Source: Planctomycetota bacterium (lineage in GTDB: Bacteria > Planctomycetota > UBA1135 > GCA-002686595). From it: a stretch of DNA of 64,000 bases. Within the stretch, counting starts at the first letter, position 1. Each line of letters opens with the position of its first letter. Positions 48,043-51,443 of this stretch are shown one piece after another. The notes beneath the pieces were generated by a model. That model was not told where the DNA came from. It made no database searches and saw only the letters and a list, made by a program, of their open reading frames with translations. The position numbers and the translations under genes were made by a program. The stretch lies in the NCBI GenBank assembly GCA_012959785.1, contig DUCM01000009.1, positions 1 through 64,000 on the forward strand. Reading direction: 5' to 3'.

Positions 48043-48330
48043 TCAGCGCTCGTGTTCCTCGCCGTCCGAGCGCTCCTCGGGGGCGCAGCGCTCTGAAATC
48101 CGCCAGCCAGTCTGTGGCACGGGATCCCAGCCGCCACGGGAAAAGGGCTGGCAGCGCAGGATGCGCCACAAGGCCAGGAGGCCGCCGCGCCACAGGCCGC
48201 GGCGTTCGATGGCCTGAGCGGCGTACTCCGAACAGGTGGGATGGAAGCGACACATGGCCGGGGTGAAGCGCGAGATCCAGCGCTGATAGAAGCGAATCGG
48301 CCAGGTCATCCAGCGGCGCGGGCCCGCCAT
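48043..48330 (-). CDS. yidD: Membrane protein insertion efficiency factor YidD
   Basis: 95 residues. YidD supports YidC-dependent membrane insertion. The signature [18 protein letters not shown] with [16 protein letters not shown] before it is unmistakable. The tail is extended and charged ([13 protein letters not shown]). ATG 48330 overlaps the rnpA stop (TGATG). A broken second copy lies 1.2 kb away at 46720-46883. Confidence 0.94.
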
Positions 48331-48791
48331 CAAGAGTCCGTCCCGTCGCCCTTTTGGGCTTGTGCCTGCTCGTAGCGATCGCAGGCTTTGCGGGCCATGG
48401 CCACCAACTCCTCGCAGGCTTCGCCCAGAACCGGCACGAGATTCGGACGGGCCGGTATGAGCACGATGTCATAGCCCACGGGCAGCTCGTGTTGGCTCAA
48501 GCGAAAGGCCTCGCGAAAGACGCGCCGGACGTAGTTGCGCTGGACGGCGCCCTTCCAGATGCGTTTGCCCACCGAGAGTCCCAGGCGCGAATGGTCGAGG
48601 CCGTTGGGCGCGAGGGCCACCACGAAGCAGCCGGATCGTGCCCGACTGCCCTGGCGGAAGACCCGCGCGAAGGACCCGGGGCTCTTCATGCGTTGGTGGG
48701 AACGGAAGCGGAGGGAGGCCACGGCGGTATTGTAGGCCCTTGAGGCCGCGCCGGAAACCTGGCTGGGGGGGGCTGGCTGTTTCTTCGGCAC
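48330..48791 (-). CDS. rnpA: Ribonuclease P protein component
   Basis: 153 residues as the longest frame. The protein helps the RNase P RNA process tRNA 5' ends. The typical RNR region is [20 protein letters not shown], with [11 protein letters not shown] before it and [10 protein letters not shown] after. [20 protein letters not shown] matches the family N-terminus, so a start at GTG 48722 (130 residues) is as likely as ATG 48791. rpmH, the usual upstream gene, is not found in the following 90 bases. Confidence 0.92.
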
Positions 48792-48869: not shown

Positions 48870-48876
48870 GGAGAAG
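48870..48876 (+). promoter_or_regulatory. Ribosome binding site deciding the ALDH-like start
   Basis: GGAGAAG ending four bases before GTG 48881 (GGAG seven bases before). It selects this GTG over ATG 48824 upstream in the same frame. Confidence 0.65.
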
Positions 48877-48880
48877 AACG

Positions 48881-50095
48881 GTGAGCGGAAACAAGAACTG
48901 GATCGCGGGCGCCTGGCGCCCCTCGGCGAGTGGCCACAGCTTCAACACCAATCATTTTGGCGCCTGGCCCAGGTCCGATGGCATGGATGTGGCCGCGGCC
49001 CTCGCCGGCATCGAAGAGGCCAGCGCCAGTTGGCGCAGTCAATCGCCAGCAGCGCGCGCCGATGGCCTGGGTGAGGTGCTCGACTATTGGGAGGACGCAG
49101 GCGAACTCGAGGAGGAGTTTGCCACATGCCTGGATCTCTTGCCCTCGGCGCTTTGGGATGCGCGCAAGGCCGCTCTCGCTTTGGGCGACGAGTACATCGC
49201 ACGGCCCCGAGACCTGGGCCCAAGGTCGCCGACTCTCGCGCGGGCCGCAGCCGGTGGACTGGGCAGTGCCCTGGTGCGCTGCGTCTTTCCAGCTCTGCTC
49301 GAAGGTCGCGGGGTGCTGCTGCTGTCGGATGCCGATGCACCGCTGGTGGCCACGCTGTTCGCCGAACTCTTCGACGCGGCGGGCTTTCCGCCGGGGCTCC
49401 TGGCCCTCCTCCACGATGATGCCTCGACCTCGGCACGGGCGGCCTTGGCCAGCGAGCGCCTGGGCCAGGTGGCCCTGGCGGAACCGGAAGACCGCGCCCA
49501 AGCTCTGGTGCGCATCGCCAGCGAGTCCTCCGTTCCGCCTCCGGGCTGGGCAGGAGCGCAGGACCTGAGCCCTCCTGGCAAACTCGATTGGCAGATCACT
49601 CCCACCCGCCAGCGGGCGGCGCTGGTGCTCCTGGGCGACGATCCCCAGGCCGCCGCCCGGGCCGTGTGCCGCCAGGCCTTCGGGCCCGCTCTGCCCCTTT
49701 CCGGCCAGGGCACCGGTGCCGTGGGCCGCGTTTATTGCCACGAGCAGCACCTTTCCGCCTTCACCAGCGCCCTGCTCGACGCCGTGGACCGCCTGGAGCG
49801 CCCCGGGATGCTCTTTGACTCGGGGCTGGCGTCCCACATCGGGCGCATCTCTCAACTGGGCCTCGACGAGGGCGCCACCCTGATCCGCGGAGCCTATGGG
49901 GCTTTCACGGGCTCGCAGCGGCGCATGCGGGACGCTATTCTGGTTCCCTCAGTTTTCACCAATGTCGAGCCCCTCATGGCCCTGGCGAAGACCGACCGGC
50001 CCGCCCCGGTGCTCAGCCTGCTGCGTGTGACCAGCGATAGCGAGGCCCAAGAACTGGGGCGTGCGTTGCCCTCGGCTGCTTTCCCCTCCCGCTGA
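48881..50095 (+). CDS. Aldehyde-dehydrogenase-like protein without catalytic residues
   Basis: 404 residues, shorter than true ALDHs (~480-500). The opening NWIAGAWRPSASGHSFNTNH and the nucleotide-binding region LVRCVFPALLEGRGVLLLSD follow the ALDH order. The usual ELGGK motif reads LVLLGDDPQ, losing the general-base Glu; the NAD-binding Lys (VxKPS) is replaced by Ser (LLLSD); and the catalytic Cys of GQxC is Thr (SGQGTGAVGRVY). It should therefore not oxidise aldehydes. The next gene, 28 bases away, is lysine 6-aminotransferase, whose product aldehyde a normal ALDH would oxidise, so this may be a binding or regulatory descendant. GTG start with a good ribosome site. Confidence 0.8.
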   Translation: MSGNKNWIAGAWRPSASGHSFNTNHFGAWPRSDGMDVAAALAGIEEASASWRSQSPAARADGLGEVLDYWEDAGELEEEFATCLDLLPSALWDARKAALALGDEYIARPRDLGPRSPTLARAAAGGLGSALVRCVFPALLEGRGVLLLSDADAPLVATLFAELFDAAGFPPGLLALLHDDASTSARAALASERLGQVALAEPEDRAQALVRIASESSVPPPGWAGAQDLSPPGKLDWQITPTRQRAALVLLGDDPQAAARAVCRQAFGPALPLSGQGTGAVGRVYCHEQHLSAFTSALLDAVDRLERPGMLFDSGLASHIGRISQLGLDEGATLIRGAYGAFTGSQRRMRDAILVPSVFTNVEPLMALAKTDRPAPVLSLLRVTSDSEAQELGRALPSAAFPSR

Positions 50096-50123
50096 CTCCC
50101 CGTTTTTTTTTGATGCCGCCACC

Positions 50124-51443
50124 ATGATCGATCCCAGTCAAGTACACAGCACCCTCAGCCGCCACCAACTCGCCGACGGCTACTCCGTGGTGATGGACCT
50201 CGAGCGATCCCGAGGCATCTACCTCCACGATGCGCATAGCGGGGACGACTACATGGACCTGTTCACGAGCTTCGCCTCGTGGCCCATCGGTTACGGCCAC
50301 CCGCTCATGGCCGACGAGGCCTTCCAGCGCGACCTGGCTGTTGTGGCCTCCACCAAGGTGGCCAACTCGGACCTCTACACGACCTACATGGCGGAGTTTG
50401 TCGAGGCCTTCTCCACCCGCGTGACCCCCGAGGGTTATCCCCACCACTTCTGGGTCTCCGGCGGAGCCTTGGCCGTGGAGAATGCCCTCAAGGTGGCCTT
50501 CGATTGGAAGGCCCACAAGATCGGCCTGAATAAGATCGGCGATGGCGAAGGCCTGTGCGCCCTGCACTTTGAAGGCGCCTTCCACGGGCGCACGGGCTAC
50601 ACCATGAGCCTGACCAACACCGACCCGCGCAAGGTCGCCCTGTTCCCCAAATTCGACTGGCCGCGGGTCTCCGCTCCGGCTGTGGAGGTCGATCTCCAGG
50701 GCCATGTGTCCAACGATGTAGCGGCTCTTGAAGCCCAGACCCTGGCGGAGATCGACGCGGCCTTCGCCGACCCGCGCTACAAGGACAGGATCGCTTGCAT
50801 CGTGATCGAGCCCCTGCAAGGCGAGGGTGGCGACAACCACTTTCGCCCCGAGTTCCTCGGCAGCCTGCGCAAGATCTGCGACGAGCGTGAGGCGCTTCTC
50901 ATCTTCGACGAAGTCCAGACGGGTTTTTTCGGCTCGGGCAAGGCCTGGCTCTGGCAACACCACGGAGTGGCGCCGGATGTGGTTGCCTTTGGCAAGAAAA
51001 CCCAGGTCTGCGGCATCTACGCCAACTCGCGGGTGGACGAAGTACCCGAAAATGTCTTCCGCGTCTCGAGCCGCATCAACTCGACCTGGGGCGGCAATCT
51101 GGTGGATATGGTGCGCTGCAAACGCTTCATCGAAATCATCGAGGCCGAGAACTTGGCGGCCAACATCACCCGCGTGGGCCAGGTTTTCCTCGAGGGCCTG
51201 CGCACAATCGCCCAGGATCAGGGGCACTTCGCCAATGTGCGCGGCTGTGGGTCGCTGGTGGCCTTTACCCTCGCGAGTGTTAGCCTGCGCGATGAGATGC
51301 TGGAAGCCCTCTACGCCAAGAAAGTCATGGCTCTGTCCTCAGGGAAGCGCACCCTGCGCTTCCGCTTGCCCCTGGTGATGACCGCAGCAGAAGCCGGCGA
51401 AGCCCTCACGCGCATCGCAGACAGTACCCCGGCGCGGGTCTAA
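50124..51443 (+). CDS. lat: L-lysine 6-aminotransferase
   Basis: 439 residues, class III PLP aminotransferase. LAT moves the epsilon-amino group of lysine to 2-oxoglutarate, giving 2-aminoadipate 6-semialdehyde. Motifs include MDLFTSFASWPIGYGHP, WVSGGALAVENALKVAFDWK, HFEGAFHGRTGYT, IVIEPLQGEGGDNHF, LIFDEVQTGFFGSG, and the PLP lysine in VVAFGKKTQVCG (~290), identical to the known LAT GKKTQ signature. ATG 50124 is preceded by a T9 run and no Shine-Dalgarno. Convergent with rlmN. Confidence 0.9.
   Translation: MIDPSQVHSTLSRHQLADGYSVVMDLERSRGIYLHDAHSGDDYMDLFTSFASWPIGYGHPLMADEAFQRDLAVVASTKVANSDLYTTYMAEFVEAFSTRVTPEGYPHHFWVSGGALAVENALKVAFDWKAHKIGLNKIGDGEGLCALHFEGAFHGRTGYTMSLTNTDPRKVALFPKFDWPRVSAPAVEVDLQGHVSNDVAALEAQTLAEIDAAFADPRYKDRIACIVIEPLQGEGGDNHFRPEFLGSLRKICDEREALLIFDEVQTGFFGSGKAWLWQHHGVAPDVVAFGKKTQVCGIYANSRVDEVPENVFRVSSRINSTWGGNLVDMVRCKRFIEIIEAENLAANITRVGQVFLEGLRTIAQDQGHFANVRGCGSLVAFTLASVSLRDEMLEALYAKKVMALSSGKRTLRFRLPLVMTAAEAGEALTRIADSTPARV

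Follow-up and report, generated by a model that had tools for sequence, protein, structure and literature searches.

Catalytically dead relatives of active enzymes have been described both within and outside the aldehyde dehydrogenase (ALDH) superfamily. Human ALDH16A1 is an ALDH pseudoenzyme without catalytic residues for which a role as a binding protein has been proposed (PMC10650815, PMC8160307), and in trypanosomes a dead copy of AdoMetDC, the prozyme, has been retained to regulate the pathway of the active enzyme (PMC6221367). Bacterial metabolic pseudoenzymes have been little studied. Here we analysed a stretch of 64,000 nucleotides (the window) from contig C9 of a 3.67-Mb planctomycete genome, whose GTDB family also holds Planctomycetes bacterium Pla86; it encodes an ALDH-like protein (pseudo-ALDH, P0001) directly upstream of L-lysine 6-aminotransferase (LAT).

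Several known systems resemble this locus. ALDH16A1 and the ALDH16 of Loktanella have the ALDH fold in common with the window protein, and the human form likewise misses the catalytic residues; however, ALDH16 proteins carry an extra C-terminal cofactor-like domain and oligomerise, whereas P0001 is a single ALDH unit of 404 aa that contains neither that domain nor an oligomerisation domain, is bacterial, lies next to lat and has another origin. The AdoMetDC prozyme is similar in being a dead copy that was kept, here with a putative binding or regulatory role, but the prozyme is a paralogue heterodimerising with its active partner, while any partner of the pseudo-ALDH is putative. The enzyme expected to oxidise the LAT product is piperideine-6-carboxylate (P6C) dehydrogenase/antiquitin (ALDH7; Pcd, AmaB; NF050084), and mycobacteria, the source of the described LAT (TIGR03251, M. 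tuberculosis Rv3290c), have ALDH7 near lat rather than a dead ALDH. The direct relative is an intact LAT-linked ALDH (L037 type) that occupies the same place upstream of lat in the sister families f8 and f4 and in Ignavibacteriota, and differs from the pseudo-ALDH in being about 500 aa long and in retaining the Cys, Glu, Lys and oligomerisation domain. Neither a dead ALDH linked to LAT nor an ALDH pseudoenzyme devoid of the oligomerisation domain turned up in the open-access papers searched; ALDH pseudoenzymes are already known, and the present lineage appears to be new.

A dead ALDH fold next to a full-scoring LAT

The features of the locus are collected in Table 1. The LAT of the window scored 558.8 bits against TIGR03251 (cutoff 520.8), a full member by score, and its closest solved structure is M. 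tuberculosis LAT (2cin, E 6e-127). The two genes are separated by 28 bp, and a promoter and terminator scan gave no signal above chance. A LAT 62% identical to that of the window was also found on a contig binned as a Candidatus Poseidoniia archaeon, possibly a binning error.

Table 1. Positions of the features discussed, in window coordinates unless a locus is named
Feature	Position	Strand	Basis
Pseudo-ALDH gene (P0001, 404 aa)	48881..50095	+	PF00171, AF2 model, 54 further family loci with a homologue 5' of LAT
GGAGA, ribosome-binding-like, 6 bp 5' of the pseudo-ALDH GTG start	48870..48874	+	sequence
Thr278 codon, position of the catalytic Cys	49712..49714	+	alignment with intact LAT-linked ALDHs
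Pseudo-ALDH conserved core, residues 261-382	49661..50026	+	conservation profile; also retained in the f5 ~160-aa remnant
L-lysine 6-aminotransferase LAT (P0002, 439 aa)	50124..51443	+	TIGR03251, 2cin, conserved catalytic-region motifs
rnpA, divergent neighbour, outside the system	48330..48791	-	PF00825; marks the conserved chromosomal site
Saccharopine-dehydrogenase-like gene (genus g65)	L260:1152-2309	-	similarity

A first-pass annotation had described P0001 as an ALDH that keeps the landmarks of the fold, with Thr for the catalytic Cys, no ELGGK Glu, Ser for the NAD-binding Lys, and about 90 residues too few. The fold was borne out by a PF00171 match of 70.9 bits (cutoff 23), which places the protein in the ALDH superfamily, and by an AF2 model (pLDDT 83.4, pTM 0.85) that matched solved ALDHs in Foldseek at TM 0.74-0.78. 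Alignment with the intact LAT-linked ALDH agreed with the description of the active site: Thr278 (SGQGT) replaces the catalytic Cys (GQRC), ELGGK with its general-base Glu is gone, EEIFGPV reads TDRPAPV, and the GxxxxG cofactor motif is also replaced. The cofactor Lys is lost as described, but its column holds Leu with Ser-Asp right behind (LLLSD versus VLKSA), rather than Ser. The C-terminal ~90 residues are indeed missing, and a second deletion, described below, had escaped the first pass. P0001 therefore lacks the catalytic Cys, the general-base Glu and cofactor Lys, and the oligomerisation domain and C-terminal anchor that characterise an active ALDH, and the P6C dehydrogenase family NF050084 was not among its 18 NCBIfam hits. 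The most conserved part is the core, with the motifs SGQxxGxxGRVxCH, FSxFTE, GLDEGATLI, VFTNVEP and RPAPVLSLLR.

Conservation, shortening and selection across the family

Within the GTDB family of the window 61 LAT loci were counted (60 fetched plus the window), and a pseudo-ALDH lies directly upstream of LAT on the same strand at 55 of these, in 36 genera; the remaining six all belong to genus g61. Likewise, every fetched locus of a P0001 homologue from relatives has LAT next door, so the co-occurrence with lat that the first-pass annotation had proposed to look for is near-universal in the family. rnpA adjoins LAT even where the pseudo-ALDH has been lost. The catalytic Cys is absent from all 55 family homologues, and the Glu, Lys and EEIFGP losses are equally family-wide, which excludes chance. 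Homologues that keep Cys and Glu, which would have pointed to pseudogene decay or sequencing error, exist only outside the family, where they represent the intact type that gave rise to the dead one.

Two deletions strip the pseudo-ALDH of its oligomerisation domain. The connector of the oligomerisation hairpin is reduced from 30 residues in intact enzymes to a median of 11, and the C-terminal tail from about 103 residues to about 15; the hairpin is shortened and the tail deleted in all 49 near-full-length pseudo-ALDHs, with the intervening segments retained. Length also varies between lineages, from about 400 aa in f1 through 280-340 aa in some genera to about 160 aa in the sister family f5, where 12 genomes (within L152-L167) carry the remnant immediately 5' of LAT. 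This remnant is homologous to the C-terminal core (hhalign probability 98 to columns 254-409 of the pseudo-ALDH profile), its cofactor half is altogether deleted, and the one remnant compared with NCBIfam gave no match.

In same-genus pairs the pseudo-ALDH evolves faster than LAT, at dN/dS 0.17-0.57 versus 0.05-0.24 by NG86, a method that ignores the strong GC bias of these genomes; the values indicate selection rather than decay. This faster evolution, the stepwise shortening and the complete loss in g61 might raise the suspicion of pseudogene decay or of an error in sequencing. Yet the frame is open in 55 loci of 36 genera with the Cys nowhere present, dN/dS is well below 1 even where LAT is gone, and the AF2 model is of good confidence. 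Sequencing error and pseudogene status were rejected on the strength of the 55 intact homologues together with dN/dS, and we consider them very improbable. Homologous to active enzymes, devoid of the catalytic motifs and maintained by selection, the protein is most probably a pseudoenzyme.

The spacing of the two genes differs between genera, with a 4-bp overlap in 10 loci, a single 933-aa open frame comprising pseudo-ALDH and LAT in one genome (G011), and gaps of up to several hundred bp in others. The overlapping stop and start would suit an open frame retained solely to serve LAT as a translational leader, but the amino-acid sequence is conserved, the wide gaps do not fit, and the gene persists without LAT in genus g65 (see below); this explanation has the least to recommend it of all those considered.

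Descent from an intact dehydrogenase and the place of ALDH7

Intact ALDHs of ~500 aa were found upstream of LAT in f8 and f4 and also, as L239 and L200, in Ignavibacteriota and one further bacterium. The pseudo-ALDH profile gave these 149-189 bits, against no more than 87 for the other ALDHs of the genome and 23 for ALDH7. In the tree the pseudo-ALDHs form one clade (support 100/100) that adjoins the intact LAT-linked ALDHs, with long branches. An origin from ALDH7, all of whose catalytic residues the pseudo-ALDH lacks, was ruled out by the profile scores and the tree. We conclude with high confidence that the protein is a conserved pseudoenzyme derived from an intact LAT-linked ALDH.

The first-pass annotation had also suggested searching the genome for a true aminoadipate-semialdehyde dehydrogenase, and one is present: P0003, on contig C17, scored 752.6 bits against NF050084 (above the threshold of 730), and the solved structures nearest to it include antiquitin and Pcd. 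A search for ALDH7 at E<=1e-130 across the order detected it in 129 of 154 genomes, whereas the three that carry an intact LAT-linked ALDH all gave no match, a comparison of intact and dead states that covers only a few independent lineages. Among 35 LAT genomes from several phyla, nine have an L037-type ALDH (>=57% identity to L037, non-ALDH7; G043, G047, G039, L200, L239 and the genomes of L218, L221, L223 and L244), 21 have a true P6C dehydrogenase, none has both and five have neither (Fisher p 2.8e-5 for mutual exclusion, in a test that ignores relatedness). Since every LAT genome tested that has the L037 type is without the true enzyme, this type probably acts as an alternative P6C dehydrogenase. 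The simplest reading of these co-occurrences is that the LAT-linked ALDH became redundant where ALDH7 serves. About eight pseudo-ALDH genomes gave no ALDH7; most are incomplete assemblies, although one, G020, has an estimated completeness of 90%. Conversely, g61, f6 and f7 have ALDH7 and no pseudo-ALDH, and any partnership between the two is therefore dispensable.

LAT and ALDH7 genes share a contig in about 20 genomes of the family (e.g. G015, G021, G031, G068), 16-47 kb apart, which suggests an old chromosomal block; in the genome of the window ALDH7 is on another contig.

Pseudo-ALDH and LAT apart, and the possible role of the protein

The first-pass annotation had proposed that the dead ALDH holds or channels the semialdehyde made by LAT, or regulates LAT. 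Such a LAT-associated subunit is a serious rival in view of operon linkage, gene overlap, the fusion of both frames in one genome and the remnant that f5 still has directly upstream of LAT, but each partner was also found alone. LAT is absent from the nine genomes of genus g65, of which at least six carry an intact pseudo-ALDH frame at the same chromosomal place, in G095 between a TolB-like gene and an RlmN-like/DHH/ClpX block. This LAT-free pseudo-ALDH is under purifying selection, with dN/dS (NG86) of 0.22-0.37 overall and 0.12-0.25 over the last 140 codons. Six g65 loci (L251-L255, L257) have lost LAT and retained the pseudo-ALDH, which is followed downstream by a DUF5916-like outer-membrane gene and an ATP-grasp gene.

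Conversely, genus g61 and Phycisphaerae have LAT without pseudo-ALDH. The possibility that the gene had moved elsewhere in these genomes was discarded, the only matches scoring like ordinary ALDHs (35-91 bits). The Phycisphaerae LATs (L178, L179, L183, L188, L192, L193, L195, L208) branch from within the LAT clade of the window family, which suggests horizontal transfer of LAT alone. Because g65 has only the pseudo-ALDH, and g61 and Phycisphaerae only LAT, the pseudo-ALDH is not an obligate LAT subunit. Of the original proposal, the conserved, selected and LAT-linked protein stands, while a role solely in holding the LAT product or regulating LAT is not supported, and we regard a LAT-associated subunit as less likely than not.

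All nine g65 genomes retain ALDH7, and all nine have a match to a saccharopine-dehydrogenase-like protein of about 385 aa that has no match in G000, G021 and G071. For the one protein examined the nearest solved relative is 3abi, a lysine dehydrogenase; the g65 protein is therefore a candidate alternative source of P6C, which may stand in for LAT as a lysine 6-dehydrogenase.

We also considered that the protein might still be an enzyme, with a new active site built into the ALDH fold. Conserved polar residues have appeared (D150 in LSDP, H178) beside the retained C286, N361 and R382, and catalytic residues can migrate in pseudoenzymes (PMC10211241). However, GxxxxG, Lys, Glu and Cys are all replaced, C286 and N361 were already present in the intact ALDHs of the lineage, and f5 has dispensed with the cofactor half entirely, leaving a new activity improbable.

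We favour the interpretation that the pseudo-ALDH, once the dehydrogenase of an aldh-lat operon, now serves P6C metabolism through binding or regulation rather than catalysis, and put the probability of this reading at roughly 45%. The ancestor would have been a P6C/aminoadipate-semialdehyde dehydrogenase. In lineages using an ALDH7-type P6C dehydrogenase elsewhere, the LAT-linked enzyme would have lost its catalytic residues and entire oligomerisation domain, presumably through redundancy, and the stripped protein would have been kept in a non-catalytic, probably monomeric form. It may bind a ligand or protein at the P6C/P6C dehydrogenase step of lysine epsilon-amino catabolism, as a regulator, sensor or scaffold. 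As the normal enzyme encoded elsewhere can do the chemistry, the dead copy is probably a binding or regulatory protein; that it acts at P6C or its dehydrogenase rather than on LAT alone we advance tentatively, at somewhat under even odds. Homology, the family-wide losses, purifying selection, linkage, descent and the true P6C dehydrogenase of the genome were all computed here.

Related families show this locus in three states, with the intact relative, with the dead protein of ~400 aa and with a remnant of ~160 aa. Replacement by ALDH7 offers a plausible reason for the loss, and the LAT-free genus g65 separates the role of the pseudo-ALDH from LAT. The comparison further points to a second kind of P6C dehydrogenase, serving LAT genomes in which ALDH7 is lacking. 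More speculatively, and with less likelihood than the interpretation favoured above, a redundant dehydrogenase stripped of catalysis and oligomerisation may have become a stand-alone binder or sensor of the reactive cyclic imine P6C or of its dehydrogenase, pared in a sister family to its ~160-aa core. If so, a single chromosomal site would preserve, in these bacteria, the successive stages that lead from an active enzyme to a minimal pseudoenzyme.
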